A DNA stretch of 64,000 nt from Gammaproteobacteria bacterium (GCA_028870845.1 JAGWOR010000003.1:1-64000), one strand, 5' to 3'. Shown: positions 8,907-28,715, numbered from the stretch's first letter. The notes: generated by a model from the letters alone, not told the origin. Program-made: numbers and translations.

Positions 8907-10136
8907 TCAATTCCAGCGGCGGAAAATCAGGCTGGTATTGATGCCGCCAAAAGCGAAGTTGTTGCTCATCACGTGTTCCACCTCGAGCTCGCGGCCGCCA
9001 CCAGTCAGATAATCCAGTTCCGCGCACTCCGAGTCCAGATTATCAAGGTTTATGGTGGGAGCGAACCAGTTATCCCGCATCATTTCTATGGTCAACCAGG
9101 CCTCCAGTGAACCGCAGGCTCCCAGGGTATGGCCGAAATAGCTCTTGAGCGAGCTGATCGGCATGCGCTTGCCCAGCACTTCCTGGGTGGCGATGGACTC
9201 AGCCACATCCCCGAGTTCGGTTCCTGTTCCATGAGCATTAACATAACCGATCGCCTGCGACGAAAGCGCGGCGTCTTCCAGCGCCAGCTGCATCACCTTG
9301 GCCATGGTGCTGGTTCTCGGCTGGGTGATGTGTGAACCATCGGCGTTGCAGCCGAAACCAACCACTTCTGCGTAGATGGCTGCACCCCGCTGGCGGGCAC
9401 TGTCCATATCCTCAAGGATCAACGTGGCCGCGCCTTCACCCACCACCAGTCCGTCGCGATCGCGGTCGAATGGCCGGGGCGTGGTTTCCGGCGCGTCATT
9501 ACGGGTGCTGGCGGCAAACAGGGTGTCGAATACTGCGGATGGACCCAGGCTCAGTTCTTCGGCGCCGCCAGCGATCATCACCGTTTGTTTGCCGTATTTG
9601 ATGGTCTCGTAAGCGAATCCAATTGCCTGGCTGCCGGAGGTACAAGCGCTGCTGGATGGAATAATCCTGCCGGTGATGCCAAAGAACAGACTGATATTCA
9701 CCGCACCGGTGTGGCTCATCATCTGCATATAGGTGTTGGAGGTCACTCCTCTGAGACTTCCGGTTTTGGCCATATGCCCGAACGCAATGACCGGTTCCGC
9801 GCTGCCGGCGCATGCGCCATAGGCGATGCCGGTAGCGCCGGAGGTGAGCACCGGCTTCCCCAGCAGGCCGGCATCCTGCAAAGCAAGTTCCGTGGCGCGC
9901 GTGGACATGACTGCCACCGGGCCCATGCTGCGCATGGTTTTGCGGGTGTAGTGCTGTGGCAATTCATATGCCGAGACCGGCGCCGCCAGACGCGTGTTGA
10001 TATCGCTAAAACCGGCCCATTCCTGCATGTACTTCACACCGGACCGGCGGGCGCGCAGATTACTGCCAATCGTTTTCCAGTCATGGCCCAGCGCAGTCAG
10101 ACCGCCCATGCCGGTAATCACCACGCGTCGTTGCAC
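8907..10136 (-). CDS. apeR: Beta-ketoacyl-ACP synthase of the aryl-polyene cluster (ApeR-like)
   Basis: 409 aa FabF-type ketosynthase with an intact Cys-His-His triad: C165 (SSACTSGS), H302 (NAHGTGT) and H336 (YFGHTLGACG), plus K331. The GTG start (10134-10136) has a strong GGGAGG six bases upstream. It is the last gene of the minus arm, 142 bases after an ACP. In characterised aryl-polyene systems a KS of this kind (ApeR) works besides the KS/CLF pair, probably in the first condensation; that role here is inferred. The weaker alternative is a primary-metabolism FabF, but the ACP and cluster context argue against it. Confidence 0.88.
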   Translation of the reverse strand: MQRRVVITGMGGLTALGHDWKTIGSNLRARRSGVKYMQEWAGFSDINTRLAAPVSAYELPQHYTRKTMRSMGPVAVMSTRATELALQDAGLLGKPVLTSGATGIAYGACAGSAEPVIAFGHMAKTGSLRGVTSNTYMQMMSHTGAVNISLFFGITGRIIPSSSACTSGSQAIGFAYETIKYGKQTVMIAGGAEELSLGPSAVFDTLFAASTRNDAPETTPRPFDRDRDGLVVGEGAATLILEDMDSARQRGAAIYAEVVGFGCNADGSHITQPRTSTMAKVMQLALEDAALSSQAIGYVNAHGTGTELGDVAESIATQEVLGKRMPISSLKSYFGHTLGACGSLEAWLTIEMMRDNWFAPTINLDNLDSECAELDYLTGGGRELEVEHVMSNNFAFGGINTSLIFRRWN

Positions 10137-10224
10137 TGAATGCCTCCCTATTAAACCGTCCGAGATTGCCTGACGGCGTCATGCGTGAATATGGTGCCAT
10201 ACCGGAAGCATGGCGGACAGGAAC

Positions 10225-10244
10225 GCGGCCCGGCGCGGGGCCGC
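10225..10244. other. GC-rich hairpin between ACP and KS genes
   Basis: A perfect 7-bp inverted repeat (gcggccc/gggccgc) with a 6-base loop lies in the 142-base spacer between the ACP and the KS. No T-run follows on either strand, so it is not a convincing terminator. It could act as an mRNA stabiliser or processing element that sets the ACP:KS expression ratio. Confidence 0.35.
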
Positions 10245-10278
10245 CTCAGCCTATTCAGTCCGTGTATGACAGGGTTAT

Positions 10279-10530
10279 TTAGTGCTTGACACTCAGCATC
10301 TGTTCGATCACCGCCTGCACGTCGGCCACGGTGTGCACCTCCTTGAACTGGTCCGGACTGACCTTGCAACCGGTCATTTCCTGCAGTTTCAGAATCAAGT
10401 CCACCGCATCGATGCTGTCCAGATCCAGATCCTCGGACAATCGCGCTTGCGGCGTGATTTTGCCGGGATCCAGATCGAACTGTTCCACCAGCGTGTTTTT
10501 AAGTGTTTGGTATATCTCCTGATTATCCAT
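10279..10530 (-). CDS. Acyl carrier protein (aryl-polyene cluster, minus arm)
   Basis: 83 aa ACP starting at the ATG 10528-10530, with AGGG upstream. The phosphopantetheine attachment serine is S39 in the DLDSIDAVDL motif (DSI rather than DSL), with acidic helix II typical of the fold. It is one of two ACP genes in the cluster, matching the two ACPs (ApeE/ApeF) of characterised aryl-polyene systems; which one carries the starter and which the growing chain cannot be assigned. The 4'-phosphopantetheine would be added by the transferase encoded at 11537-12283. Confidence 0.93.
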   Translation of the reverse strand: MDNQEIYQTLKNTLVEQFDLDPGKITPQARLSEDLDLDSIDAVDLILKLQEMTGCKVSPDQFKEVHTVADVQAVIEQMLSVKH

Positions 10531-10649
10531 TTGCCCTGGCCCCACAATTTTTCATGTATTTATAAACGCTGACTTTACCTGATCTGTTACATAAATTCCT
10601 GCAGATTCACAGCTAGGCCCAAGTGGGCGCTTCATTGCAAACACATCCA

Positions 10650-11513
10650 TTACTGGCTTACCGGATCAACGCCAGGAATTCGCAACAGATCGGGGACAGT
10701 CGCGCATTGCAGCCCCTTGGACTGAAGACCGTGCAAAATCAGCCGTAGTGCCTGTACGCAATGACTGCGATGCCGTCCCGGCAGGTCGTGCCCATCGTGT
10801 ATCAGTACGATGTCGCCGGCGCGTATTTTTTCAAGTACCCGTGCTGCGATTTTCTCCGGGTTTCGCGAACGTGAATCTCGGCTGTGCAGAGACCAGGCTA
10901 CGAGAATGATATTCTTCCGGAACGCGGCTTTTGCAAGTTCGCAGCTCTTCAAGCCAATCGGCGGCCTGAACATAACGGGAGATGTTCCGCCCAGTTTGTG
11001 GATCAGTTGCTGGCATTTTTCGATTTCACAGGCATGCCTGCGTTTGAAGTAGAAATTCTGCAGACGTGAATGGCTCCAGGAATGATTCGCAAGCACATGA
11101 CCTTGTTCCAAGATGTGTTTTCCCAGTTCCGGGTTGGCATCCAGCCATTTGCCAATCACAAAAAAAGTGGCATGTGCACGATACTCACGTAATAGTTTGA
11201 GTACCTCAGGCGTGACTTCCGGATCCGGGCCGTCATCAAAGGTCAACGCCACATGCCTGCTTGAGCGCGAGCCGTGCGTGACAGTCGGATAAAATAGCTG
11301 TGAGCCAGGACGCGCGATTCCATCAATCTGCAATAGCAGCAGAACTATGGCCGGGAACCCAAGCAGCGTTATCGGCCAATTGAATGCCACGCCGGTGGCA
11401 ATTGCCAGCAGCGCCAGGGCCAGGGTGATGTACTGCAGGTTCCAGCGCAGCGCGCGCAGTCTGATATCCGGCCGCTTGTCAGCAGCTTTTGGCCCGTGAT
11501 ACAGCTCACCCAC
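10650..11513 (-). CDS. Membrane-anchored polysaccharide deacetylase (NodB domain)
   Basis: 287 aa with a GTG start (11511-11513). Two hydrophobic segments (about 27-45 and 47-65) precede a NodB homology domain (about 85-270). The domain has motif 1 TFDDGPD, the metal-binding HSWSH motif, RPPIGL and a late LIHDGHD motif, so the metal triad Asp-His-His and catalytic residues look intact. The family removes N- or O-acetyl groups from carbohydrates such as peptidoglycan, chitin or exopolysaccharide. It sits between the PPTase and an ACP on one strand, so it is probably co-expressed with the pigment genes. I do not know it as a standard aryl-polyene gene. Confidence 0.88.
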   Translation of the reverse strand: MGELYHGPKAADKRPDIRLRALRWNLQYITLALALLAIATGVAFNWPITLLGFPAIVLLLLQIDGIARPGSQLFYPTVTHGSRSSRHVALTFDDGPDPEVTPEVLKLLREYRAHATFFVIGKWLDANPELGKHILEQGHVLANHSWSHSRLQNFYFKRRHACEIEKCQQLIHKLGGTSPVMFRPPIGLKSCELAKAAFRKNIILVAWSLHSRDSRSRNPEKIAARVLEKIRAGDIVLIHDGHDLPGRHRSHCVQALRLILHGLQSKGLQCATVPDLLRIPGVDPVSQ

Positions 11514-11536
11514 TGGCTGCCCTCATGGTGAAAGTC

Positions 11537-12283
11537 CTATTGGGCGCGGCGCGGCGCCGCAGACGGCGTGTACGCCTGTAAATCGGGTTTCAGCCGGTGC
11601 CACTGCCGGTCGGCGCCCCATTGCCGGTACTCGATCCGGTGTGGCCTGCCGTTACCAGCCATCGCCAGGGCCATACGCCAATTCGCTGCTATGGAAGCAG
11701 ACAAGAAATACCAGGTCTCACCGGATACGGATGGTGGTAATTGAAAACTGTGATTTTGCATTTCGAAGCGGACGCCTTGTAGGCATGCCAGCAAAGGCAG
11801 GCGCGTGGCTTTGCATGCGGCTTCCTTCAGGGTCCAGTAGGTGTAAAAAACCACGAGCCGGTCGCTTTCTGTGAGTCTACCCAAATAGCGGTTTTCTGTT
11901 TCGGAAAACACCCCGGTATCCTGGCGGATCAGATTGCGCATCTTCATGTATTCGATATCCACGCCGATCCTGGTATCCGACAGGCTGATCACAAACATGT
12001 GATGGCTGTGGCTCAGGCTGATATAAGTGGGATTGTTTTGCAGGTAAACGCCGCCATCCGGATGGCTGCGTATGGATTCAGGATCACAATGTCCGAATCT
12101 GAATGCCAGCGCGTCGACCAGAAATGCGCGCCCCTTCAACCAAGTATCGCGCCTGAGCGGATTTGTGATCTTTGCATAACGCTCCCTTTGAGATTCATGC
12201 AGCCCCGCCAACAGTTCATGCACATGTGCAGCCGGCGGATAATTCCCGGCATTTGCGATCATAACCTGGGTTGGCTCTGGCAT
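11537..12283 (-). CDS. 4'-phosphopantetheinyl transferase (Sfp/AcpT type)
   Basis: 248 aa from the ATG at 12281-12283; a TTG directly after the fabV stop (12310) and an ATG at 12262 are alternatives. It carries the two signature motifs GVDIEYM (metal-binding Asp/Glu) and WTLKEAACKA (W-x-x-KEA), which transfer phosphopantetheine from CoA to the ACP serine. The lack of space after fabV indicates co-transcription. It presumably activates the two cluster ACPs. Confidence 0.9.
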   Translation of the reverse strand: MPEPTQVMIANAGNYPPAAHVHELLAGLHESQRERYAKITNPLRRDTWLKGRAFLVDALAFRFGHCDPESIRSHPDGGVYLQNNPTYISLSHSHHMFVISLSDTRIGVDIEYMKMRNLIRQDTGVFSETENRYLGRLTESDRLVVFYTYWTLKEAACKATRLPLLACLQGVRFEMQNHSFQLPPSVSGETWYFLSASIAANWRMALAMAGNGRPHRIEYRQWGADRQWHRLKPDLQAYTPSAAPRRAQ

Positions 12284-12310
12284 ATGGAGACTGGCGATTG
12301 GATGTCCCAA

Positions 12311-13513
12311 TCACATTGCTTCGCAAACAAGATTCGCTTCGGCATGCACATCCTGGTCGTAGTCAACATCCTGCCTGCCGAAGCCGAACAGTTTTAAAAA
12401 CTCGCGTTTGTAGCCCGGATAGTCCGTGGCTGTGTTCAGATTTTCATCCGTGATGTCGGCCCAAAGTTCCCGACATTCCTTTTGGACATCTTCTCGCAAT
12501 TCGCGTTCATCCATTCTCAAGCGTCCCTCAGCATCAGTCCGCGGAGGCCGGCAGTCCTTCGAATACAGTTTTTCGTCAAACAGGCGGAACACTTGATCGA
12601 TGATGCCTTCATGTAAACCCTTGCCCTTCATTATGCGGAATGCGATGGAAATATACAGGGGCATTACCGGGATAGCGGCGCTCGCCTGTGTGACCACGGA
12701 CTTCATGACCGCGGTATAAGCTTGCAATTCACTCGCGGCATAGCGGGTGCGCAGCATGTCGATGGTGTTCTCAAGATGCTGTTTTGCGCGGCCAATGGTG
12801 CCATGCCAGTATATCGGCCAGGTGATTTCAGGTCCCAAGTAACTGAATGCTACGGCTTTGGCGCCGTGTTGCAGCAACTTCGCTTCCTGCAAGGCAGCAA
12901 TCCAAAGCTCCAGATCCTCACCGCCCATTACCTTGATGGTGCTGTCGATTTCCTGGGGACTCGCGGGTTCGAGTCTTACGTCGACCAGACGGTCCCGGTC
13001 GGTGTCTATGGATTTGCCGGAGAACTCGGTTCCGATCGGTTTGAGGGAAGTGCGGACAAGTTCCAGGGTATCAGGCAGTTTGCGCACCGGAGATGCCAAT
13101 GAATAAACCACCAGATCAACTGGTCCACCCAGTTTTTTCCCGATTAAGTCGATTACATGCTTACGAGTCTGGTGCGAGAAAGCATCCTCATTGACGGACA
13201 GGCTTTGCAAGCCGTAGGCATCCGCAGCTTCTTGAAATGCAGCCGAGTTGTACCAGCCGGCAGTCGCAGTCTTGACGCCCCGCGCGGGTTTTTCCAGAAA
13301 CACCCCCAGGGTCGCCGCACCGAAGCCAAAAGCCGCGGTAATCCTGGCGGCTAACCCGTAACCCGTTGATGCGCCGATAACCAGCACCCGGGCCGGCGCA
13401 TTCGGCCGCCGTGTCATTTTCCGGGCCACCTCGATCTGTTCAAGCACGTTTTTCGCGCATCCCACGGGGTGCGCATTTGTGCAGATAAAACCCCAGGTTT
13501 TAGGTTTAATCAC
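12311..13513 (-). CDS. fabV: Trans-2-enoyl-ACP/CoA reductase FabV
   Basis: 400 aa NADH-dependent enoyl reductase. The GTG start (13511-13513) gives MIKPKTWGFICTNAHPVGC, which matches the FabV N-terminus; a TTG one codon earlier is possible. It has the Rossmann GASTGYGLA, the WYN segment and the catalytic region FSYLGPEITWPIYW with the active-site Tyr and downstream Lys. FabV reduces the last double bond in each round of fatty acid elongation and confers triclosan tolerance in other bacteria. It heads the minus arm and would be divergently transcribed from the CLF. Its presence in a cluster whose product should keep its double bonds is notable. Confidence 0.95.
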   Translation of the reverse strand: MIKPKTWGFICTNAHPVGCAKNVLEQIEVARKMTRRPNAPARVLVIGASTGYGLAARITAAFGFGAATLGVFLEKPARGVKTATAGWYNSAAFQEAADAYGLQSLSVNEDAFSHQTRKHVIDLIGKKLGGPVDLVVYSLASPVRKLPDTLELVRTSLKPIGTEFSGKSIDTDRDRLVDVRLEPASPQEIDSTIKVMGGEDLELWIAALQEAKLLQHGAKAVAFSYLGPEITWPIYWHGTIGRAKQHLENTIDMLRTRYAASELQAYTAVMKSVVTQASAAIPVMPLYISIAFRIMKGKGLHEGIIDQVFRLFDEKLYSKDCRPPRTDAEGRLRMDERELREDVQKECRELWADITDENLNTATDYPGYKREFLKLFGFGRQDVDYDQDVHAEANLVCEAM

Positions 13514-13555
13514 CAAGCCGGATATCCTCTTGAACGCACCTGTGAATCAATTTAC

Positions 13556-13584
13556 CTTATATATGCGCTTGGGAGCGATGACAA
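13556..13584 (-). promoter_or_regulatory. Candidate sigma70 promoter for the minus arm (fabV side)
   Basis: On the minus strand TTGTCA (plus 13579-13584) and TATAAG (plus 13556-13561) are separated by exactly 17 bases, each five of six matches to consensus. Transcription would start about 35 bases before the fabV GTG. A weaker plus-strand pair (ATGACA at 13578-13583, TTAAAT at 13600-13605) overlaps it and faces the CLF gene, so the two arms may share a control region. Confidence 0.5.
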
Positions 13585-13644
13585 CGGTGATAAAAGCTAT
13601 TAAATGCGCCCAACACGATTTTTCAAGGGTTATGAACCAGCGAA

Positions 13645-14397
13645 GTGAGCATCGCCCAACAATATAACTTTATTGGGGATTTCGGCATCGCCCGTTGGCG
13701 GGCGTGGTCACCGGGGATCAGAACAAATGACGATTGGCTGAAGTGGCTTGATGGGGCGCAGGATACGCCGCCGGATGATCAGCCGGATGTCAGTTTCCTG
13801 CCCGCGCTGCTGCGCCGGCGTCTGGACCGTTACGGGCGCATGGCGCTGCATACTGCCTGGCCTTGCTCACAGGGAGAAACATCTGTGCAGACGGTATTCG
13901 CTTCCCGGCATGGAGCCTTGAATCGCACCATGGAATTGTTGGGCGCACTGGCCAGGGACGAAACCCTGTCTCCTACGCTGTTCACCCTTTCGGTACACAA
14001 CAGCGTCGCCGGCCTTTTGTCCATCGCACGCAAAGACCGGGGGGCGGCCACGGCCATGGCTGCCGGCCCGGACACCTTGATTCTGAGCCTGCTTGAGGGG
14101 GCGACCATGCTGCAAGAGGGCGCCACACGGGTGCTGGTTATATACGTGGATGACTCAATGCCGGAAGTCTATGCGTCGCAGACAGCCTCAGCCCCAAATC
14201 GCGCATTCGCCGTTGCTCTACTGCTTACCCCCGTGGCGGAGTCGCCCCTGCACTGCCGCCTCACGGGGCTGCGTGAAAGCTTGCGGCCGCGACACGCGCC
14301 TGAGGTTGAGTTGATGGAATTCCTGCTGGGCAGGATCGGGTGTGCCGAGTTTGGTGCACACCAAAGCTGGCGACTTGAGCGACGTCATGCTGGCTAG
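13645..14397 (+). CDS. apeC: Chain-length-factor-like ketosynthase, N-terminal domain only (ApeC-like)
   Basis: 250 aa with a GTG start. It matches the short beta-ketoacyl synthase N-terminal family (ketoacyl-synt_2) with the opening RARW-AWSPG pattern. Where a true KS has the nucleophilic Cys, this protein reads SVHNSVAGLLSIA, so it cannot carry an acyl chain on cysteine. In characterised aryl-polyene systems such a protein (ApeC) pairs with the KS ApeO and sets chain length. The partner here would be the KS at 24948-26132. The next gene overlaps its 3' end by 11 bases. Confidence 0.85.
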   Translation: MSIAQQYNFIGDFGIARWRAWSPGIRTNDDWLKWLDGAQDTPPDDQPDVSFLPALLRRRLDRYGRMALHTAWPCSQGETSVQTVFASRHGALNRTMELLGALARDETLSPTLFTLSVHNSVAGLLSIARKDRGAATAMAAGPDTLILSLLEGATMLQEGATRVLVIYVDDSMPEVYASQTASAPNRAFAVALLLTPVAESPLHCRLTGLRESLRPRHAPEVELMEFLLGRIGCAEFGAHQSWRLERRHAG

Positions 14398-15208
14398 CAT
14401 ATATAAGTACTGGCGCGCACTTGGAACCGGCTTGTGCTTCGGAGCCTTCGGCATCTGCAGCATGCTCGCTAACTTCACGGTTCTTCCCATCATGCTGATA
14501 TGGCCGGGCACGCCTGAAAACCGCCAACGCCGGATTCGCATATTTATAAGCCGCTCATTTCGCGCATTGCTGTCAGCAATCGCCGCATTGCGCCTTGGGT
14601 GGGTCGATGTAGAAGGCAAGCAATGGTTTGCCCAGGCTGGCGGCAAGCTGGTGCTTGCGACCCACCCAATGTACCTGGATGTCGTCGCCTTGATCGCCGT
14701 GCTGCCCACCGCTGATTGCGTGGTGAAAAAAGCAACCTTACGCAACCCATTTACCCGATTCTTCGCCAAGGCCGCGGGTTATTACAGCAACGAAGATTCT
14801 GTTGAATTTTTGGATACTTGTATCCACGCCCTGCGCAACGGGCATACGCTGATCATATTCCCACAGGGCACTCGCACGCTCCCAGGTGAAACTTTGCATT
14901 TCAAACGCGGTGCCGCCCAGGTGGCAGTGCGCAGCAATTGCTGGATTCTGCCGGTCATGATCCACTGCTCACCTCCCGCACTGGTGAAGAACACCATGTG
15001 GTATCAGGTACCGGAGCGGCCGTGGCGACTGCTGGTGAAAGCATATCCCCCGTATAATCCCGCAGCTTCGCCCCAAGAAAACGCTTTACCAAATGCAATC
15101 GTTGCCCGTCGGCTGACGCGGCAGCTTGAAGTTTTCTTCAACCAAGAGCTCTCCGGACATGAATACCCTGGTGCAGGAACTGAAACAGCTCATAATCGAT
15201 TCGCTTGA
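14387..15208 (+). CDS. 1-acylglycerol-3-phosphate-type acyltransferase (PlsC fold)
   Basis: 273 aa from the ATG at 14387; an in-frame GTG at 14342 would add 15 residues inside the CLF gene. An N-terminal hydrophobic segment (about 12-40) is followed by the LPLAT catalytic H-x4-D motif (THPMYLD) and FPQGTRT, the phosphate-binding motif of PlsC enzymes. It probably transfers an acyl or aryl-polyenoyl chain to a lipid-like acceptor at the inner membrane. It overlaps the CLF by 11 bases at its start and the ACP gene by 50 bases at its end. Small lysophospholipid-acyltransferase-like proteins are a regular part of aryl-polyene loci. Confidence 0.85.
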   Translation: MLASIYKYWRALGTGLCFGAFGICSMLANFTVLPIMLIWPGTPENRQRRIRIFISRSFRALLSAIAALRLGWVDVEGKQWFAQAGGKLVLATHPMYLDVVALIAVLPTADCVVKKATLRNPFTRFFAKAAGYYSNEDSVEFLDTCIHALRNGHTLIIFPQGTRTLPGETLHFKRGAAQVAVRSNCWILPVMIHCSPPALVKNTMWYQVPERPWRLLVKAYPPYNPAASPQENALPNAIVARRLTRQLEVFFNQELSGHEYPGAGTETAHNRFA

Positions 15209-15416
15209 TCTCGAGGATATCGGGCCTGATGATATCGATCCTCAAGCGCCATTGTTCGGCGCCGGCCTGGGACTGGATTCGATCGATGCACTGGAACTCG
15301 GTGTAGCCATACAGAAACGTTTCCACATCAAGCTGGACAATGATCCCGCGGCGACGCGCCAGCACTTCCAGTCAGTCACCAGCCTGGCAAGATTCATCGA
15401 ATCAAAGGCCAAGTAA
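15159..15416 (+). CDS. Acyl carrier protein (aryl-polyene cluster, plus arm)
   Basis: 85 aa ACP starting at ATG 15159 within the acyltransferase gene; an in-frame TTG at 15126 is not needed. The attachment serine is S41 in GLGLDSIDALELG. The helix II DSID pattern is shared with the other cluster ACP, and the two differ elsewhere. The 50-base overlap with the preceding gene suggests coupled translation. A 135-base spacer follows before the next gene. Confidence 0.93.
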   Translation: MNTLVQELKQLIIDSLDLEDIGPDDIDPQAPLFGAGLGLDSIDALELGVAIQKRFHIKLDNDPAATRQHFQSVTSLARFIESKAK

Positions 15417-15551
15417 CGGACTTTAAATCGAAACACATGGATCGCCGCCAATACAGGGGAAACATCTCTGCGCCCGGGACAAGGGAACATGACCAAACAC
15501 CGGCTGGCCGGCAAGTGACCCGGACATCCGGCTAAAACTCATGGAACGCTG

Positions 15552-16133
15552 ATGATGCAAAATTCAATCACGCTGGCACTATTCGGGGCACTTTCCATTT
15601 ACCCGGTGGTGATATATTTTTTCGAAGACCACCTTTCCCCAAGCCAATTGCTATCCGGATTGTTATTACTGGTCTGCGCCAGATTACTGGTGTTGACTTG
15701 GCGCAAACCAAAGTACCGGGCGAGATACGCCATATTGGCATGCGCAATATTTTTTGCCGCAATTTTTATACCTTCCTATATGCCGCATCTCCAATTGCTG
15801 TACTTGCGATTTTATCCCGCGCTTTTTTCCTTGGTCGCGTTTTCGGTGTTTTTTATCTCATTGTTTACAAAAATGCCGCTGGTCGAGCGTTTAGCACGTA
15901 TTCAATACCCCAACTTGTCGCAACACGCGGTACTTTACACCTACAGAGTCACGCTTATCTGGTGCTGCGTTTTGTTCTTGAACGTGGCTGTCTCAATGTA
16001 TACCGCCGTGGCAACCAGCTTGGCTGCCTGGTCCTTTTACAACGGCTTGCTCATATATTTCATCTTGGGCGGGGTATACACCTGCGAGTACCTGATCCGC
16101 CTGTATCTGTTTCGGAAATGGGCGGTTGCATGA
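15552..16133 (+). CDS. Predicted integral membrane protein of the aryl-polyene cluster
   Basis: 193 aa with six or so hydrophobic segments and no catalytic motif. The pattern resembles COG4648 membrane proteins found in aryl-polyene loci just before the AMP-ligase gene, which is also its position here. An ATG at 15555 is an equal start. Its stop overlaps the AMP-ligase start as ATGA. Its base composition looks more AT-rich than the flanking genes. It may help anchor or export the polyene; no direct evidence is visible. Confidence 0.75.
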   Translation: MMQNSITLALFGALSIYPVVIYFFEDHLSPSQLLSGLLLLVCARLLVLTWRKPKYRARYAILACAIFFAAIFIPSYMPHLQLLYLRFYPALFSLVAFSVFFISLFTKMPLVERLARIQYPNLSQHAVLYTYRVTLIWCCVLFLNVAVSMYTAVATSLAAWSFYNGLLIYFILGGVYTCEYLIRLYLFRKWAVA

Positions 16134-17482
16134 AAACTGGCCAACGGAATACCTCCAAAGTTCATGACGATGTGGCGATTTTCAGCGCCGGCACCCTGGA
16201 TCGCGCTACATTCTGGAACCGGGTACACGGCTTGAAAAACGTCATACAAGGGCATTCCGGGCGCAGATGGGCCTTGTTATGCGAGGACAGCAGTTGGTTT
16301 GCCGCCGGCTTCATGGCGCTGGCCAATTGCAGACGCCTGATTGTGCTGCCGCAATCGAGCCTCGCCGGGGCTGTCGGCAAAGATCATGAATTTGACCTGA
16401 TACTCAGCGATCACCCGGAAAACTATCCCGGCTTACATTGCATAAACATTCAGGCAACCGGCACCATCGCGGACGGCATGGCCTGCTTTCCAGACGACGA
16501 TGTCCGCGTCGAGTTCCACACATCCGGATCCACCGGCAGCCCAAAGTGCGTGCCCAAGGCATTTGCACAGCTGCGCAACGAAGTGCAAACCCTGGAAAAT
16601 CAATGGGGCGCTTCCCTGGGTCAGGCCGTAATCATCAGTACGGTTCCACATCATCACCTGTATGGACTGCTGTTCAGGGTACTCTGGCCGCTGCTGTCCG
16701 GCCGCCCTTTCCTTGCCTCTGTATGCCTGCATCCGGATGGCTTACGCAATCTGCCAGTTCAGCTGCCAAAGATCATCGTCAGCAGCCCGGCGTTTCTGAG
16801 CCGAATTGATAACTTTTCGGAGTTGCCGCCGGCTGCCGAGGTAGCCGCAGTCTTCAGTTCCGGCGCGCCGTTGCCGGACGAGACTGCCATGAAGTTCGTC
16901 AAAATCTGGGGCCGGAGCGTGACTGAAGTCTACGGCAGTACCGAAACCGGCGGTATCGCCTGGAGGGCCGCATCAGTCGACGGTAAACGCCGGCCATGGC
17001 GGGCTTTTTCAGGCGTAGAACTTGATTTACGCCAGGAGCCGTCCGGCGACAGACTCTGGGTCAAATCACCCTGTACCTGGCAGTCCGGATGGATGGCTAC
17101 CGGCGATCTGGCGCGTATCCATGCGGATGGCGGGCTCGAACTTCTGGGGCGTAGCGACGACGTGATCAAGATCGCCGACAAACGCGTATCCCTCGGTGAA
17201 ATCCGCATTCAGCTGGCCGCTCACACCATGGTGGCTGATGCGCGACTGGTGCTGGTTGCGGGGCGCCGGTCCATTATCGGTGCGGTTGTGATCCTGAATG
17301 CTTCCGGCCAAAGTTTGCTGAAATCCAGCGGAAAAAAGGCGGTGTGTGATGCATTGCGCGCCTGGCTGCGCGAGCGTTATGAACCGGTAATGATTCCCAA
17401 GAAGTGGCGTTTCGTCGACGCCTTTCCCGGCACCGATATGGGCAAGATTGAAAACCAGCGCATGCTGCAATTGTTCACATAG
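16130..17482 (+). CDS. apeH: Acyl-ACP/CoA synthetase (AMP-ligase, ApeH-like)
   Basis: 450 aa member of the adenylate-forming family, starting at the ATG overlapping the previous stop; the open frame continues upstream to 15698 but is shadow. Core motifs are TSGSTGSPK (about 131-139), EVYGSTETGG, TGDLA and GRSDDVIKIADKRVSL. The last places a Lys-containing hinge before a short C-terminal domain. In aryl-polyene synthesis this enzyme activates the aromatic starter acid and loads it on an ACP. The starter should come from the ammonia-lyase at 19528-21075. Confidence 0.88.
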   Translation: MKTGQRNTSKVHDDVAIFSAGTLDRATFWNRVHGLKNVIQGHSGRRWALLCEDSSWFAAGFMALANCRRLIVLPQSSLAGAVGKDHEFDLILSDHPENYPGLHCINIQATGTIADGMACFPDDDVRVEFHTSGSTGSPKCVPKAFAQLRNEVQTLENQWGASLGQAVIISTVPHHHLYGLLFRVLWPLLSGRPFLASVCLHPDGLRNLPVQLPKIIVSSPAFLSRIDNFSELPPAAEVAAVFSSGAPLPDETAMKFVKIWGRSVTEVYGSTETGGIAWRAASVDGKRRPWRAFSGVELDLRQEPSGDRLWVKSPCTWQSGWMATGDLARIHADGGLELLGRSDDVIKIADKRVSLGEIRIQLAAHTMVADARLVLVAGRRSIIGAVVILNASGQSLLKSSGKKAVCDALRAWLRERYEPVMIPKKWRFVDAFPGTDMGKIENQRMLQLFT

Positions 17483-17487
17483 CAGCC

Positions 17488-17838
17488 ATGTTCCAGCCGC
17501 CAACCGTCATCGCCAGGCGTACCAATCAAGATGCTTATGAGCTGGATTTCTTGATTGCGGCCGATCACACCTGCTTTGCCGGCCATTTTCCCGAGCATCC
17601 CATCTTGCCGGGCGTGGTGCAGGTAGGCTGGGCAGTGAACTGCGCTGAAGAACTGCACGGATTCGCCGCGGGCTTGGAAAAGCTCGAGCGCGTTAAATTC
17701 ATGCGTCCGATACTCCCCGGAATGCACGTCACCCTGCGTTTGAGCGTCGATGCCGAGAGCAAAAAAGTGCGTTATGAATACCGGGATGCTACAACCCGTT
17801 ATGCAAGCGGCACGCTGTGTTTCAGGATGACGCCATGA
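17488..17838 (+). CDS. apeI: 3-hydroxyacyl-ACP dehydratase, hot-dog fold (ApeI-like)
   Basis: 116 aa FabZ/FabA-like hot-dog protein. The active-site region AGHFPEHPILPGV includes H33 and is a close match to the FabZ catalytic segment. It would dehydrate the beta-hydroxyacyl-ACP formed by the ketoreductase. In known systems it works with a partner dehydratase (ApeP), which is found here at 26129-26572. Its stop overlaps the next gene as ATGA. Confidence 0.85.
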   Translation: MFQPPTVIARRTNQDAYELDFLIAADHTCFAGHFPEHPILPGVVQVGWAVNCAEELHGFAAGLEKLERVKFMRPILPGMHVTLRLSVDAESKKVRYEYRDATTRYASGTLCFRMTP

Positions 17839-19589
17839 AAGTCAGGGCCTGTGCCGTCATACCTGTTTTCGATCATCATGCATATCTAGAACAGATTGTG
17901 TGCGCCCTGCTCGCTGAGCGTCTCCCCTGCATCCTGGTGGACGACGGAAGCTGTATAACAACCAAACGGGTACTGGTGTCCATCCAGCAACATCACCCGC
18001 AGGTAGATCTGCTCACGCTCCCGGCAAACCAGGGAAAGGGCGCCGCCGTACTCACCGGCCTGGCGCGCGCCGCTGAGTGCGGGTACAGCCATGCATTGCA
18101 GATTGATGCGGATGGTCAGCACAACCTTGCCGACATACCCGCCATTCTGCAACTGGCGCGCCGGCATCCACACTGCCTGATTTCGGGTCTACCGGTGTTT
18201 GACGATTCGATTCCCGCGGTGCGGCTTCATGGGCGCCGCCTGACGAATGCCTTGGCCAAGCTGGAGACACTATCGCTTAAGTTGCGTGACGCCATGTGCG
18301 GTTTCAGGGTGTACCCCGTGGAAGCCATGCTGGCATTGGATCAGCGGGTAAAAATCGGGCGGCGCATGGATTTCGATACCGACTGCATGGTGCGTCTGTA
18401 TTGGGCGGGCATCGAAAGCGAGTTCCTGCCCACCAAAGTGGGCTATCCAAAGGACGGGACGTCGCATTTCCGCATGTTTTCCGACAACACCCGGATGACA
18501 TGGCTGCACATACGCCTGGTGACCGGCATGTTGCTGCGCATGCCGAAGCTGTTGCGCGCGAAAAAATCAACCAAGCAACGGCGCGGCTGGCCGCATATAG
18601 GCGAACGCGGCAGCCTGCTGGGATTGCGGTTTATTGGATTTATTGACCGCACGTTCGGACGCTACGCGAGCCTTTTGGTGCTGTATCCCGTGACCGCGTA
18701 TTTCTTTGTCACGCATCCGCGTGCCAGGCGGGCGTCGCGGCAATTTTTAATTGCGGCTGGTGCTAAAACTTCGCTAGCAAACCGGTTCCGGCATTTCATG
18801 GGTTTTTCCGTCTCCATCCTCGACAAGGTCGCGAGCTGGCACAACCCGAAACGCATCAAGGTGGAGTTCCCGGACCGTGACATCCTGCTTGCCGGCACTG
18901 CACATAAACGGGGCGTGTTATTGCTCACCGCCCACCTTGGAAACATGGAAGTGGCGCGCGCCATATCCGAAATCGACCCGTTATTTCGCTGCACTGCTTT
19001 GGTCTACACAGTCAATTCCCGGAAAGTCAGCGCCATGCTGGAATCGACCAACCCCGCATTCCGGAGACGCATGCTGCAGGTACAAACCATCGGCCCAGAT
19101 ACCGCATTGCTGCTGCGCGAACTGATCGCTGCGGGCGAGGCGGTGGTGTGCATGGGCGACCGTACACCGGTGTCCGCGGACAGTCCGGTTGTCACAGCGG
19201 AATTCCTGGGCCGGCCGGCGGAGTTCGCCATCGGGCCCTACGTGCTGGCACATGTCCTAGAGTGCCCTGTTTACCTGTTCTTCTGTTTGCATCAAGCAGG
19301 CGGCTATCGTATATATTTGGAACCTTTTGCAGATCGCATACGCCTGCCGCGTAACGGCCGATTCGAGGCTGCGGCAATGTGGGCCGGCCGTTTTGCGGGT
19401 CGGCTTGAGCATTATGCAATTCGATTTCCGCTGCAGTGGTACAACTTCTATGATTTCTGGGCGGAAAACGTGACATCATACGATTCACAGCCGAATGCCT
19501 CGCAAACGCGCACAGCCGGGACGCAAGATGGCAAAAGACGGGCCGGAAAAGCACATAACCATCGGTGGACGGAACCTCACCCTGATTGA
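17835..19589 (+). CDS. Glycosyltransferase family 2 / LPLAT acyltransferase fusion
   Basis: 584 aa bifunctional protein. The N-terminal GT2 domain (about 1-230) has CAVIPVFDHH, VDDGS (metal/nucleotide-sugar binding) and QIDADGQH. The C-terminal domain (about 290-560) resembles lipid A type acyltransferases (HtrB/LpxL-like, COG4261) with LTAHLGNMEVAR and GDRTPVSADSP. Together they could glycosylate a lipid anchor and attach an acyl or polyene chain, fitting reports that aryl polyenes are bound to the outer membrane through a sugar-lipid. It overlaps the ammonia-lyase gene at its 3' end by about 60 bases. Confidence 0.87.
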   Translation: MKVRACAVIPVFDHHAYLEQIVCALLAERLPCILVDDGSCITTKRVLVSIQQHHPQVDLLTLPANQGKGAAVLTGLARAAECGYSHALQIDADGQHNLADIPAILQLARRHPHCLISGLPVFDDSIPAVRLHGRRLTNALAKLETLSLKLRDAMCGFRVYPVEAMLALDQRVKIGRRMDFDTDCMVRLYWAGIESEFLPTKVGYPKDGTSHFRMFSDNTRMTWLHIRLVTGMLLRMPKLLRAKKSTKQRRGWPHIGERGSLLGLRFIGFIDRTFGRYASLLVLYPVTAYFFVTHPRARRASRQFLIAAGAKTSLANRFRHFMGFSVSILDKVASWHNPKRIKVEFPDRDILLAGTAHKRGVLLLTAHLGNMEVARAISEIDPLFRCTALVYTVNSRKVSAMLESTNPAFRRRMLQVQTIGPDTALLLRELIAAGEAVVCMGDRTPVSADSPVVTAEFLGRPAEFAIGPYVLAHVLECPVYLFFCLHQAGGYRIYLEPFADRIRLPRNGRFEAAAMWAGRFAGRLEHYAIRFPLQWYNFYDFWAENVTSYDSQPNASQTRTAGTQDGKRRAGKAHNHRWTEPHPD

Positions 19590-21075: not shown

Positions 21076-21078
21076 ATC

Positions 21079-21498
21079 ATGAGCAAAGCGCTGCTGACCG
21101 CTGAGGCCACCCTGGAAGTGCCTTTCCAGGACATTGATGCCATGCAAGTTGCATGGCACGGAAATTATCTGCGATATTTTGAAACGGCCCGCACCACGCT
21201 GCTGCGCAGCATAGATTACGATTACCCGCAAATGCTGGCCTCGAATTACCTATGGCCCATCATCGAGGCGCACCTGCGCTTCATAAAACCTTTGCGCTAT
21301 GGGCAGCGCATCCAGGTGAGCGCAGAACTCGTGGAATGGGAAAATCGCATGAAAATCGACTACACAATTCTCGATGCCGGCAGCGGTGACCGCCATACCA
21401 AGGGCTACACCATTCAGTGTGCCCTGGATATGCGCACCCAAGAGTTGCAGCTTGTGAGTCCGGGCGCATTGCGCGATCGGCTCAAGGCCTATTTATGA
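21079..21498 (+). CDS. Acyl-CoA/ACP thioesterase, hot-dog fold (4HBT; ApeK-like)
   Basis: 139 aa with the 4-hydroxybenzoyl-CoA thioesterase pattern DIDAMQVAWHGNYLRYFETAR, where D and H line the active site. It would release or proofread ACP-bound chains. Its stop overlaps the following gene as ATGA, and it starts three bases after the ammonia-lyase stop. A single-domain thioesterase at this position is regular in aryl-polyene clusters. Confidence 0.85.
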   Translation: MSKALLTAEATLEVPFQDIDAMQVAWHGNYLRYFETARTTLLRSIDYDYPQMLASNYLWPIIEAHLRFIKPLRYGQRIQVSAELVEWENRMKIDYTILDAGSGDRHTKGYTIQCALDMRTQELQLVSPGALRDRLKAYL

Positions 21499-22061
21499 AA
21501 CCCCTTGGGTTTGCAGCCGGCGCCCTGTTGGCATGCACTGCGTTGAGCGTGGCGGCGGGGACAGCGATGACTGCCTTGCCCGGTAAATTCAACTCGGCTT
21601 TCATGCAAACCCGCAGCATTCCGGGATTTAAGACCCCGCTGGTCAGTTACGGTATCGTGCATGTGGACGGAGTTCACGGTTTCCGCTGGCAAGTGAATTC
21701 CCCATACCACTATGTATTCCTCATGCAAGGCGACAAGGCCGAGGAACTGCAGCCGGATGGCAGCGTGCGTGAACTCAAGGCTGAAAACACCCCATGGCTG
21801 GAAGCAGTCCAGCATATCTTCATGGCCGCCGTGGCCGGCGACTTGTCGGAATTGCAAAATTACTTCCACCTGGAAATAACCCGGCTCGCAAGCGGACAGC
21901 AAATCAGCATGACCCCCAGAACCAGCGCCATGGCGGCAGCCATCGAAAGCATCCAGTTGATTGAGACCACGCCAGGCCAGCCAAAACAGCTGTTGATCAG
22001 GGAAAAATCCGGCGGCCGCATTGACATTCGCTTTCACCCTGAAAAGCGCAGCGGAACCTGA
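21495..22061 (+). CDS. LolA-like periplasmic carrier protein
   Basis: 188 aa with an N-terminal signal peptide ending near AGTAMA-like residues (about 20-25). The rest is an outer-membrane lipoprotein carrier (LolA/COG2834) like fold, with FMQTRSIPGFKTPLVSYGIV and GFRWQVNSPYHYVFLM. The cluster copy is probably dedicated to moving the lipid-bound polyene across the periplasm rather than bulk lipoproteins. It starts in an ATGA overlap with the thioesterase, and the MMPL gene begins two bases after its stop. Confidence 0.82.
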   Translation: MKPLGFAAGALLACTALSVAAGTAMTALPGKFNSAFMQTRSIPGFKTPLVSYGIVHVDGVHGFRWQVNSPYHYVFLMQGDKAEELQPDGSVRELKAENTPWLEAVQHIFMAAVAGDLSELQNYFHLEITRLASGQQISMTPRTSAMAAAIESIQLIETTPGQPKQLLIREKSGGRIDIRFHPEKRSGT

Positions 22062-22063
22062 CT

Positions 22064-24376: not shown

Positions 24377-24951
24377 AGCCCGGAATTATCTGTGTGCTGT
24401 TATGCCTGCAGTTAGTGTGCGTCGGCTGCGCTTCTTTGCCTGAAAAAAACTGCCTCTCCATCGGCCGGAACGGAAAATTCTGCCCGCTGGCGCCCGCAGA
24501 ACTCCCCCCGATTCAAGTCGTGGACATGATTGAAATCCGCCACGGCGGACACCAGGAGGTGCTTCTTGGACAGCTACAGACGGATGCCGACGAAATGCGC
24601 TTCGCCGCCACCACCCTGTTTGGCACCAGCCTGTTTTCCATAATTTACGATGGCAAACAAATACGCAGTCTGCCGCCGGATGCCAGCCTGCATGCGGACT
24701 TGCTGGTGGCAATGTTGGAACTGTCACTGGCACCACCCGGAATACTCGAATCTCATCTGTATAATCTTTCACTGCAGGTCCACGCGGACGCCAACAGCCA
24801 GGTCCGTGAACTCTACGAGCAGGGACGACTGGTTGCCCGCATTGCGCTGTCCGGGACCGCCCCCGAGAACATGCATGTAGATGTGCGGCTGACGCCGGAA
24901 AACATCTCGATAAACGTAATACCGGTTTCCGAAAGCAAACGGCAACTATGA
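24373..24951 (+). CDS. DUF3261-type lipoprotein
   Basis: 192 aa with a lipoprotein-like signal peptide: hydrophobic residues 5-18, then VCVGC as an imperfect lipobox. The small beta-rich C-terminal part resembles the DUF3261 lipoproteins that accompany LolA and MMPL genes in aryl-polyene loci. It may accept the polyene-lipid at the outer membrane, by analogy with LolB. It overlaps both neighbours by four bases. Confidence 0.75.
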   Translation: MKPGIICVLLCLQLVCVGCASLPEKNCLSIGRNGKFCPLAPAELPPIQVVDMIEIRHGGHQEVLLGQLQTDADEMRFAATTLFGTSLFSIIYDGKQIRSLPPDASLHADLLVAMLELSLAPPGILESHLYNLSLQVHADANSQVRELYEQGRLVARIALSGTAPENMHVDVRLTPENISINVIPVSESKRQL

Positions 24952-26132
24952 ATCGGACATATATTCATGCTCTCGGCATCGTCAATGCACTCGGCGATGA
25001 TGTAAACAGTGTCCGCACCGGCCTGTTGAATGGCAGCATGTCCGGCATCCGGATCCGCAACGACCTGATCAGCGGACGAACCGTGCATGTCGGCGAGGTA
25101 ATCTGCGAATTGCCGGAACTGGAGTCCGAATTTGCCGCCTACGCATCGCGTAACAACCGCATGTTGACGGCCGCGGTATTACAGATCCATGCACAGATCC
25201 AAGCAGTGACTGCGCGTTACGGCAAACACCGAATCGGCATCGTGCTCGGCACCAGCACTTCGGGCATTGCCGAAGGCGAGCGCGGCTTGGAGCAGTACCT
25301 GCGCACCGGAAAGTTTCCCGCCGACTTCGATTATCAGCAGCAGCAGGAAATCAGCAGCCCCAGCCAATATCTGCGTCATTTTCTGGGCGTCGGCGGCCCG
25401 GCATGGACTGTTTCCACCGCCTGCACTTCCAGCGCCAAGGCATTTTCATCGGCCCGACGCCTGCTCAACTCCGGGGCCTGTGATGCGGTAGTGGTTGGCG
25501 GAGTGGATACTTTGTGCCGCTTGACCCTGAATGGATTTGGGGTGCTTGAATCGCTGTCTGATGGCCGCTGTAATCCTTTCAGCGCCCATCGCGACGGCAT
25601 CAATATCGGGGAAGGTGCGGCGATATTCCTGGTAAGCCGCGATCCCGGCCCGGTTTGTCTGCTGGGGATCGGCGAAACTTCCGACGCATTTCACATCTCC
25701 GGCCCCGATCCCGAGGGGGTGGGGGCCGAGCTCGCCATGCGCAAAGCGCTGGCGGATGCCGGAATTGCTGCCGGCGACGTCGATTACCTGAATTTGCACG
25801 GTACGGCCACCGTCGACAATGATCAGATGGAAAGCCACGCGGTCGAGCGTGTGTTTGGCGCTTCTGTTCCCTGCAGCTCAACCAAACCCATGGTTGGCCA
25901 CATGCTGGGAGCCGCCGGCGCCACGGAACTGGCGTTCTGCTGGATGCTGTTAAGCTCCTCTCGGCCGACTAAACTTCCGCCACATATCTGGGATCAGGCG
26001 CGCGACCCTGGATTGTCGCAATTGAATTTATATCCAGGCGATGGATCCGAGCGCGAATGCCGTTTGACAGCCAGCAACTCATTTGCTTTCGGCGGTAACA
26101 ATATCAGCATCATCCTGGGCCGGGAATCATGA
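24948..26132 (+). CDS. apeO: Beta-ketoacyl-ACP synthase, KS of the KS/CLF pair (ApeO-like)
   Basis: 394 aa ketosynthase with an intact triad: C159 (STACTSSAKAF), H284 (NLHGTATVDND) and H318 (VGHMLGAAG). In aryl-polyene systems ApeO forms a heterodimer with ApeC, and the Cys-less protein at 13645-14397 is the partner here. It overlaps the preceding lipoprotein and the following dehydratase by four bases each. It differs clearly from the other KS in the cluster (8907-10136), so this is not a recent duplicate. Confidence 0.88.
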   Translation: MNRTYIHALGIVNALGDDVNSVRTGLLNGSMSGIRIRNDLISGRTVHVGEVICELPELESEFAAYASRNNRMLTAAVLQIHAQIQAVTARYGKHRIGIVLGTSTSGIAEGERGLEQYLRTGKFPADFDYQQQQEISSPSQYLRHFLGVGGPAWTVSTACTSSAKAFSSARRLLNSGACDAVVVGGVDTLCRLTLNGFGVLESLSDGRCNPFSAHRDGINIGEGAAIFLVSRDPGPVCLLGIGETSDAFHISGPDPEGVGAELAMRKALADAGIAAGDVDYLNLHGTATVDNDQMESHAVERVFGASVPCSSTKPMVGHMLGAAGATELAFCWMLLSSSRPTKLPPHIWDQARDPGLSQLNLYPGDGSERECRLTASNSFAFGGNNISIILGRES

Positions 26133-26572
26133 ACCAGGCATTTCCGCCTATCCAGGAACTTCTCCCACACCGGGGACCCGCGATTCTGATCGATGAAGTA
26201 CTGTCGGATTCAGAAGACAGCATCCGCGTGGCCGCAAACATCAACCGTAATCACCCGTATTTCATGCTAGGCCGCGGCGTTCCCAGCTGGGTAGGCATCG
26301 AATTGATGGCACAAGCCGTCGCCGCACACGCAGGGCTGGCAAACCGGCGTACAAATACCGCCCCACGCATCGGCATGCTTCTGGGGGTACGCAGCTTCAA
26401 CACCGAAACACGCTACTTTCATGAGGGCGAGTTGCTGGAAATAACTTCAATCAGTCAATTCGGCGAGAGCGGCGATATTGCCGCCTGCGCCTGTACTATT
26501 CAATGCGGAGGGAAAATAGTTGCGCAGGGTACCCTGATTATCATGCAAACCGAAAAGCAGGCCCGATTGTGA
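26129..26572 (+). CDS. apeP: 3-hydroxylacyl-ACP dehydratase partner, hot-dog fold (ApeP-like)
   Basis: 147 aa, FabA/FabZ-like hot-dog protein with [14 protein letters not shown] near the start and [19 protein letters not shown] forming the central helix. It lacks the GHFP motif of ApeI, consistent with a heteromeric dehydratase in which ApeP supplies part of the active site. It overlaps ApeO upstream (ATGA) and the ketoreductase downstream (GTGA). Confidence 0.82.
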
Positions 26573-27300
26573 GCGAACCCAAAAGGGTCCTGGTCACGGG
26601 CGCAAGTGGTGCTATCGGCGGGGCCATTGCAAACCAGCTGGCGCTTGCGGGGTTCCATGTATGCCTGCATTACCACCGCAACCGGGTGAAAGTGGAAACC
26701 TTGAATGCGCAAATCCAGGCATGCGGCGGCATTTCCCATGTAATTCAATTCGATCTCGCCGACCGGGAAAACAGCGAACGCATATTGCAGGCGGATTTGG
26801 ATTCCGGAGGTGCTTATTGGGGCGTGGTGTGCAATGCGGGAATCACCGCGGACAATACCTTTGCTGCCCTGTCGGGCGACGATTGGGACCGGGTAATCGG
26901 CCTCGATCTGGGAGGCTTCTATAATTTGTTGCACCCACTGATCATGCCCATGATCCGCTTGCGCGACGGGGGGCGCATTGTAACCATTGCTTCCCTGTCC
27001 GGTGTAATGGGCAACCGCGGGCAAACCAATTACAGCGCGGCCAAGGCGGGTATAATCGGGGCCAGCAAGGCACTTGCCGTGGAGCTTGCCAGCCGGCAAA
27101 TCACCGTCAACTGTATCGCGCCCGGGCTGATCGAAACCGGGATGATTAATGGTCTGCCATTGGATGACATTATCAGGCAAATCCCCATGGGACGGCTGGG
27201 GCGTCCGGAAGAGGTTGCGGCTCTCGTGGCTTTTCTGTTCAGCGACTCAGCGGGTTACATCACGCGTCAGGTTTTCCAGGTCAACGGCGGTATGCTTTAA
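26569..27300 (+). CDS. apeQ: 3-ketoacyl-ACP reductase, SDR family (ApeQ/FabG-like)
   Basis: 243 aa short-chain dehydrogenase starting at the GTG in the GTGA overlap with Ape[10 protein letters not shown] (about 10-18) binds NADPH, and the catalytic triad is S142, Y155 and K159 in NYSAAKAG. It reduces the beta-keto chain in each extension round. It ends the biosynthetic part of the plus arm; the next gene starts 47 bases downstream. Confidence 0.9.
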
Positions 27301-27347
27301 CTTGCGGCGTGTAACTTTTCTGCATGCAAATTACGGAGCACCTCACT

Positions 27348-27905
27348 ATGGACAAGAAATACAAGGCAATAATTCTCCTTGCATTCACTGCCGGAATGCT
27401 CGGCTGCTCCTCAGACAACGTCAAGATCGCTGATGGCGAATATCTGCGTCCCTACATACCCATTGCAGTGCTGCAGGGCGGACAGGACGGCGTGCCGCTG
27501 GTGGATCTTCACAACGGCGAGTACTACTGGACCTACCTGACACCGGGTATCTATCAATTCACAGGCATGTTTGACTATTCCGGCGACTATCGCGGAAACG
27601 GTATCCCGTCCAGGCCGATGCAAATGCAGGCCGGCCAAACCTATTACTTTCAGGTAACGCAACGACCTGCGCGTGCAATTCAGGACATCGCCATCATGCA
27701 ACGCGCGGATTTCAGCGATATGGCGGCGTATACATCCACACAGGGTCTACCGCCGAAGAATAACCAGATGTCGCTGGTATATTTCTTCTACAAGCTGCCA
27801 TACAGTTTCAGCCCCCAAAAACCGGGCGGTACAAAAGCCGCGAACAGCCTGCAGAAGCAATTGGGCTGTAGCGACCAGGAAATGCGCGACGGCACCTGTC
27901 AGTAA
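27348..27905 (+). CDS. Small DUF2846-like lipoprotein
   Basis: 185 aa from the ATG at 27348 with GGAG upstream. The hydrophobic N-terminus ends in a good lipobox (MLGC), giving a mature lipoprotein from about Cys20. The mature part has the DUF2846-like pattern of a basic YLRPYIP segment, NGEYYW-TYLTPGIYQF and a late Tyr-rich stretch. The function is unknown. It follows the pigment operon on the same strand and may be its last gene; no terminator is visible before it. Confidence 0.75.
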   Translation: MDKKYKAIILLAFTAGMLGCSSDNVKIADGEYLRPYIPIAVLQGGQDGVPLVDLHNGEYYWTYLTPGIYQFTGMFDYSGDYRGNGIPSRPMQMQAGQTYYFQVTQRPARAIQDIAIMQRADFSDMAAYTSTQGLPPKNNQMSLVYFFYKLPYSFSPQKPGGTKAANSLQKQLGCSDQEMRDGTCQ

Positions 27906-27938: not shown

Positions 27939-28715
27939 TTACAGGAATCCGCCGGCCTTGACGCCGGCCATATAGACCAGGGTCTCGTTGCGTTGGCTCG
28001 ACGGCGGCACGCGGCGCAAGTGCAGCAATTGCATGAATCCGTCCAGCGTGGTCCTGCTCCACCAGTAATACGGCATTAATACGTTGCGTGCTCCGAATAC
28101 AAATCCCGCGTTACGGATCTTCGCCAGATACTCATCCGCGCTGCATTGCACCTGCATGGGATGCCGGAACAGCAACCGGATCAACCAGGTGTCGATATAG
28201 GCGCGGGTTGATTCCGCAAACAGCAGGATGCCGCCGGATTTGAGCACCCGATAAAACTCGGACATGGCCTTGTCCTGCCGGACCAGATGGTGGAAGGTCT
28301 GATGGCAGAACACCAGGTCAACACTGCCGTCATCCAACGGAATGGCGGCGCAATCCGCTTTCAATAACTGCACCTCAAGATCCGGGATCAGTGCGCGTCG
28401 TTGGGCGTGCCTCAATGCCTGGTGCTCGGCGTCCAGCCCGATAATCCGGCGCGGATGAAAACTGGAGCGCAACAGCTGGAATGCCCGGCCCTGGCCGCAA
28501 CCTGCGTCCAGGATTACCGGGTAGGATTGTGCCGGCGCATCCATCAGCTTGATCAGGTCGCCGAGCGAAATCTGTATGACGTGGCGTTCCCACAGGTGGG
28601 TTCCCAAAAACCAGAACCCGAACCTGGATTCGGGTACAAAGCCAAGTTTGTTTGGTTCGCACTTTTTGGTATCTGACAACACGCCATCCGACATCGCAGT
28701 TTCATCCGTATTCAT
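27939..28715 (-). CDS. Class I SAM-dependent methyltransferase
   Basis: 258 aa from the ATG at 28713-28715; a TTG three codons earlier is less likely. SAM motif I is VILDAGCGQGRAF (about 65-75), followed by acidic motif II (GLDAE), then DLVFCHQTFHHL (motif IV) and a core Rossmann fold. The C-terminal half is Arg/Trp-rich and lacks a metal- or nucleic-acid-binding signature, so the acceptor is unknown. It converges on the pigment operon with only 33 bases between stops. E. coli aryl polyenes are methylated by a cluster enzyme, so a tailoring role is possible but unproven. Confidence 0.8.
   Translation of the reverse strand: MNTDETAMSDGVLSDTKKCEPNKLGFVPESRFGFWFLGTHLWERHVIQISLGDLIKLMDAPAQSYPVILDAGCGQGRAFQLLRSSFHPRRIIGLDAEHQALRHAQRRALIPDLEVQLLKADCAAIPLDDGSVDLVFCHQTFHHLVRQDKAMSEFYRVLKSGGILLFAESTRAYIDTWLIRLLFRHPMQVQCSADEYLAKIRNAGFVFGARNVLMPYYWWSRTTLDGFMQLLHLRRVPPSSQRNETLVYMAGVKAGGFL

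Follow-up and report, generated by a model that had tools for sequence, protein, structure and literature searches.

Aryl polyenes (APEs) are well-known yellow membrane pigments of many bacteria. As a reference for the genes that make them we used the E. coli CFT073 cluster apeA-apeR (c1204-c1186), taking the gene names from the table in PMC8253772 and comparing its eighteen proteins by BLAST with those of the DNA analysed here. Aryl-acid loading by ApeH, elongation by the ketosynthase (KS)/chain-length factor (CLF) pair and formation of the polyene have been demonstrated in vitro for homologous proteins (PMC8253772, PMC8358021). Most APE clusters place ApeE next to ApeF, and ApeR after ApeQ.

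Here we describe a locus with a different arrangement, found in a stretch of 64,000 nucleotides (the window) from a Gammaproteobacteria bacterium (GCA_028870845.1, JAGWOR010000003.1:1-64000). Region 8907-27905 of the window is almost certainly an APE biosynthesis and export cluster of the type that carries an ammonia-lyase. The cluster is complete and of a kind already known, and its layout is rearranged and lineage-specific. From the gene content we infer that the source organism forms the pigment.

Gene content of the cluster

ORFs were listed over window positions 5000-32000, and the proteins of 8907-27905 were searched against Pfam, ten of them also against NCBIfam. The source genome is 87.6% complete, so that absent genes may sit in gaps. 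The genes are given below, with identities and Ape names referring to the E. coli cluster.

8907-10136, minus: ApeR-type ketosynthase (initiating/short-chain KS); 58.6% to E. coli ApeR over 406 aa; PRK09116, 687 bits (cut-off 470)
10279-10545, minus, start 10545 (GTG) or 10530 (ATG): ApeF-type ACP; 54% to ApeF, E 4e-27; PRK05350, 107.5 bits (cut-off 65)
10650-11513, minus: NodB-like polysaccharide deacetylase with a likely membrane segment; PF01522, 1.4e-32; TFDDGP and HSWSH
11537-12310, minus: Sfp/AcpT-type 4'-phosphopantetheinyl transferase (PPTase); PF01648, 3.6e-10; best NCBIfam model AcpT, under its cut-off
12311-13516, minus, start 13516 (TTG) or 13513 (GTG): FabV enoyl reductase, which opens the left arm; NF043048, 593 bits (cut-off 400)
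13645-14397, plus: ApeC chain-length factor without the active-site Cys; PF13723, 2.4e-56; best PDB match 6qsp_B; 33% to ApeC
14387-15208, plus: ApeD lysophospholipid-type acyltransferase; PF01553; 39% to ApeD
15159-15416, plus: ApeE-type ACP; 55% to ApeE; PRK09184, 88.7 bits (cut-off 70)
15552-16133, plus: ApeG-type membrane protein (COG4648); 38% to ApeG, E 2e-25
16130-17482, plus, start 16118 or 16130: ApeH acyl-ACP synthetase (AMP ligase); PF00501, 2e-20; 32% to ApeH over 422 aa, E 2e-56
17488-17838, plus: ApeI dehydratase subunit; PF22818, 1.3e-11; 31% to ApeI
17835-19589, plus: ApeJ glycosyltransferase/acyltransferase fusion; PF00535 and PF03279; 44% to ApeJ over 551 aa
19528-21075, plus, start 19495 or 19528: APE-type aromatic amino acid ammonia-lyase; PF00221, 9e-160; ASG, YH, HNQDKVSMG
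21079-21498, plus: ApeK thioesterase; 51% to ApeK; PF13279
21495-22061, plus: ApeL LolA-like carrier; 24% to ApeL, E 8e-8; PF19574
22064-24376, plus: ApeM MMPL/RND-type exporter; 25% to ApeM over 748 aa, E 9e-42; PF03176
24373-24951, plus: ApeN, DUF3261, LolB-like; PF11659, 1.6e-16; E 1e-5 to ApeN
24948-26132, plus: ApeO elongating ketosynthase; 48% to ApeO; PDB 6qsp_A, E 1.7e-104; PRK09185, 516 bits (cut-off 407)
26129-26572, plus: ApeP dehydratase subunit; PF22817, 2.9e-18; best PDB match 6qsr_B
26569-27300, plus: ApeQ ketoreductase; 59% to ApeQ
27348-27905, plus: DUF2846-like putative lipoprotein, last gene of the right arm; PF11008, E 1.7e-5, under the Pfam cut-off; LGC lipobox-like motif
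27939-28724, minus: class I SAM methyltransferase, an uncertain member lying outside 8907-27905; PF08241, 4.5e-24

An earlier, sequence-only reading of this DNA had listed most of these genes, and ORF listing, Pfam and NCBIfam recover all that it named at, or very near, the positions it assigned to them: two KS, a Cys-less CLF, two ACPs, an AMP ligase, ApeI-like and ApeP-like dehydratases, an SDR ketoreductase, a MIO ammonia-lyase, a 4HBT thioesterase, a PPTase, a PlsC-type acyltransferase, the glycosyltransferase/acyltransferase fusion, and LolA-like, MMPL and DUF3261 genes. The list holds as far as it goes, and it passed over FabV, the NodB-like deacetylase and ApeG, all inside the span. The statement that the genes mostly join by four-base overlaps was too strong: such overlaps occur at six, possibly seven, of the 15 right-arm junctions and at none in the left arm.

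The likeness to the characterised APE set, likewise proposed in that reading, is borne out by BLAST, with the expected E. coli CFT073 partner being the best match for all 16 of the functions ApeC-ApeR. Searches against the E. coli cluster alone gave E-values of 0 (ApeR), 1e-158 (ApeJ), 5e-119 (ApeO) and 4e-96 (ApeQ), and identities run from 59% (ApeR, ApeQ) through 48% (ApeO) and 44% (ApeJ) to roughly 25% in ApeL, ApeM and ApeN, the export proteins. The match of the gene set to APE clusters is far beyond chance. ApeH, both ACPs, ApeQ and ApeR are assigned to the APE set by this comparison, and the ApeF-type ACP keeps its serine site (LDSIDAVD). Both halves of the ApeI/ApeP dehydratase pair (PF22818 and PF22817) score over their Pfam cut-offs, and the lipid attachment and export set ApeD, ApeJ, ApeL, ApeM and ApeN is present, ApeL and ApeN being recognised through weak but specific matches.

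Ketosynthases and chain-length factor

The KS/CLF pair, on whose family the APE assignment turns, finds its best solved structures in the ApeO:ApeC complexes 6qsp (Xenorhabdus doucetiae) and 7f28. Cys-His-His is kept in both KS proteins (8907-10136, minus; 24948-26132, plus), and the half-size CLF of about 250 residues has AAGPDT at the place where a KS has ACTS; E. coli ApeC likewise lacks the cysteine. In a phylogenetic tree one KS groups with ApeR and the other with ApeO, both clades having 100/100 support and standing apart from the FabF/FabB-like KS of the same genome. Grouping of the pair with other type II systems, which the earlier reading had named as evidence that would count against it, was thus not seen. 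General KS, ACP and ketoreductase similarity is all that speaks for a different type II system (dialkylresorcinol, PUFA or aromatic polyketide synthase) that happens to resemble an APE cluster; it is opposed by the full Ape-specific family set and the trees, by a score of 23 bits against a cut-off of 550 on the DarB model, and by the failure to find a DarA/DarB-like gene among the cluster genes scanned, and we consider it highly improbable.

Additional KS genes were seen near related clusters. One family member (G004) carries a gene 70% identical to the window ApeR about 1.3 kb from FabV (L167:14375-15754, contig C125). This is a different contig from that of its main APE cluster, which seems to have a KS of its own, and the gene is possibly a second ApeR copy. 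Two genomes from another family of the order have a further KS on the opposite strand just upstream of the APE cluster (L130, about 10326; L132, about 9462-9949), in one case along with an ACP.

The ammonia-lyase and the starter unit

The window lyase has the MIO triad ASG together with YH and HNQD motifs. Of the APE-type lyases, 93 could be read at the first motif, and every one has FH or YH where HutH has SH; HNQD is present in all APE-type lyases at the place where nearly all HutH proteins have QED. APE-cluster lyases score best or nearly best on histidine ammonia-lyase models, and it is the YH/FH plus HNQD signature that tells them from true HutH. The window protein reaches 407 bits on the HutH model against a cut-off of 539, whereas the HutH that the genome encodes on contig C71 exceeds it with 634 bits; on the FlxA equivalog model the window protein scores 315 bits against 700. 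The QED glutamate binds histidine in HutH, and histidine is therefore an unlikely substrate for the window lyase, which has no QED. The substrate of such lyases is not predictable from sequence alone (PMC3992019), and the most likely reaction here is formation of 4-coumarate from L-tyrosine as the starter unit; the cluster would then likely bring its own starter, as the sequence-only reading had it. A Chitinophaga pinensis lyase with mixed motifs is a tyrosine ammonia-lyase that starts flexirubin (PMC3992019).

The starter could instead be 4-hydroxybenzoate supplied by UbiC, as in E. coli, with the lyase serving another purpose or an accessory route. The genome does contain UbiC, a lyase is absent from the E. 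coli cluster, and either starter would give the same aryl-polyene skeleton, so that product structure alone could not tell them apart. Against this, the lyase lies mid-operon in the family and in about 67 long named clusters (a biased sample, being found through the lyase), and flexirubin clusters begin from tyrosine by way of a lyase (PMC3992019). We regard the UbiC route as unlikely, if worth keeping in view, and retain tyrosine-derived 4-coumarate as the preferred starter.

Idiomarina aquatica and Photobacterium chitinilyticum (L101, L059) have APE-type lyases of 56-59% identity in unmasked sequence with few or no other APE genes nearby, and this lyase type is perhaps put to a different use there.

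The divergent arm and FabV

The left arm is a divergent operon of FabV, PPTase, NodB-like deacetylase, ApeF and ApeR. The PPTase-deacetylase-ApeR arrangement recurs in three other genomes of the window's family (G002, G003 and G009), with ApeF detected between deacetylase and ApeR in the first two. G011 has the same left-arm genes placed behind ApeQ, G004 carries the PPTase and deacetylase, and G007, G008 and G010 retain the canonical ApeE-ApeF order. Given these layouts, the split arm is a derived state in part of the family, and the two-armed description in the earlier reading, itself right, can be placed accordingly. Deacetylase and PPTase occur together in five further genomes of the family, and in the window the deacetylase keeps its metal-binding motifs TFDDGP and HSWSH intact.

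The window FabV is well above the FabV equivalog cut-off (593 versus 400 bits) and has an intact active site with the Y-x8-K motif YWHGTIGRAK. In each of the ten genomes of the family that show both FabV and APE genes, the two are linked: FabV lies on the contig of the main cluster in seven (G000, G002, G003, G005, G007, G008, G011), and in the other three (G004, G009, G010) it shares a contig with genes of an APE arm. Its position varies: it heads the left arm, lies downstream of ApeQ, or stands upstream on the opposite strand. Searches of other families of the order detected no FabV. The retention of linkage through rearrangement hints at a functional tie between FabV and the APE genes; mere neighbourhood or co-transfer explains it equally well.

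FabV might be a working part of the pathway, removing one or more polyene double bonds or saturating the acyl chain of the lipid anchor, with a partly reduced APE relative as the product. Besides its intact active site, what favours this is its place beside APE genes in those ten genomes in at least three layouts, its position, in the window and in one sister genome, at the head of the operon that also holds the PPTase, the deacetylase and ApeR, and the presence of FabI in each, so that FabV is not the only enoyl reductase. However, FabV is nearby in only two of 69 long named APE loci, one of the two from the same genus, and is therefore not needed for APE formation; it is also a common stand-alone fatty-acid enzyme found in other families of the class, and the linkage may be no more than neighbourhood. 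We consider such a role quite unlikely. A broader version, in which the family recruited both FabV and the NodB-like deacetylase into the pathway, so that its polyene is partly reduced or its sugar-lipid anchor differs from those of known APE lipids, appears improbable. Whether the linked FabV and deacetylase alter the pigment product is nonetheless a point of some interest. The preferred reading remains that FabV accompanies an APE cluster of an ordinary kind.

FabV as the sole enoyl reductase of the cell was considered and rejected, because FabI is found elsewhere in every family member having FabV; in the window's genome it lies on C44, where the FabI models are the best matches, each under its own cut-off. 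The only APE-FabV linkage seen outside the family is in Photobacterium lipolyticum, with FabV close downstream of ApeR (L084:19508-20677). In G001 (L166 and L187; contig C16 from about 280000) the sequence directly beside the FabV-MipA-flavoprotein genes reads N. Loss of the APE genes with retention of FabV in this genome was accordingly dropped, since absence is unreadable there and may only reflect masking.

Lipoprotein, methyltransferase and flanking genes

The DUF2846-like lipoprotein (27348-27905) may take the part of ApeA. BLAST gave no support for E. coli ApeA and ApeB as counterparts of this lipoprotein and the adjacent methyltransferase, and found no ApeB counterpart in the window. 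The methyltransferase (27939-28724) shares 53-55% identity with genes found within APE clusters of Pseudomonas, yet in most of the family its homologue is sited away from the APE genes, which leaves its membership uncertain; it is possibly a head-group methyltransferase. A methyltransferase match adjoining ApeR in G011 (L117) turned out to be UbiE and was not counted as an APE gene.

A halogenase-like flavoprotein is a common APE component, with matches in 64 loci (e.g. L125:7564-8961, in G008). Whole-genome searches found it in six family members and detected none in the window's genome (87.6% complete), G002, G003 or G005. The stretch adjoining the cluster (28749-31422) codes for an arginine deiminase/DDAH-like protein, a DUF5946 protein and a Rieske ring-hydroxylating oxygenase, and has no sign of cluster membership.

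Proposed pathway

By analogy with homologues, the lyase would deaminate an aromatic amino acid, the most likely case being the conversion of L-tyrosine to 4-coumarate, and ApeH would adenylate the resulting acid and load it onto a PPTase-activated ACP. ApeR and ApeO:ApeC are predicted to extend this starter with malonyl units, ApeQ to reduce each beta-keto group, and ApeI:ApeP to dehydrate without enoyl reduction, giving the conjugated polyene. ApeK would assist release, ApeD and ApeJ would attach the acid to lipid, and ApeL, ApeM and ApeN would carry the product to the outer membrane. More tentatively, sugar trimming on the lipid anchor may fall to the deacetylase, and FabV most likely serves as a second enoyl-ACP reductase that travels with these genes.

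Comparison with known clusters

The window shares with E. coli CFT073 the order C, D, E, G, H, I, J, K, L, M, N, O, P, Q. It differs in having the ammonia-lyase between ApeJ and ApeK, a PPTase, FabV and deacetylase of its own, and ApeF and ApeR in a divergent arm, and in having no BLAST counterpart of ApeA or ApeB.

With the flexirubin cluster of Chitinophaga pinensis (PMC3992019) it has in common the lyase start and a polysaccharide deacetylase, acyltransferase, LolA, glycosyltransferase and exporter. Unlike that cluster, no dialkylresorcinol genes were found among the window genes scanned, and the window lyase stays far under the FlxA cut-off.

The core order, lyase included, is shared with the lyase-bearing APE clusters of Vibrio, Aliivibrio, Photobacterium, Shewanella, Herbaspirillum and Pseudomonas (L038-L115), whose lyases are 56-62% identical to that of the window. 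In contrast to the window, these clusters have ApeE and ApeF adjacent and ApeR after ApeQ, and most have the halogenase-like flavoprotein that the window's genome lacks. More widely, a search with the lyase brought up 80 named loci, 69 of them at least 20 kb long; this sample is biased by the query and says nothing about clusters without a lyase. Nearly all the core genes are each present in 65-69 of the 69 long loci, in one order. LolA was detected in 30 and DUF3261 in 8 of them, which fits fast divergence of both. The order is conserved in Vibrio, Aliivibrio, Photobacterium, Shewanella, Pseudoalteromonas, Pseudomonas, Herbaspirillum, Chromobacterium and Pseudoxanthomonas. Thus, the window's gene order is matched by dozens of named Proteobacteria, and a rearranged APE layout is now documented in a little-studied gammaproteobacterial family.
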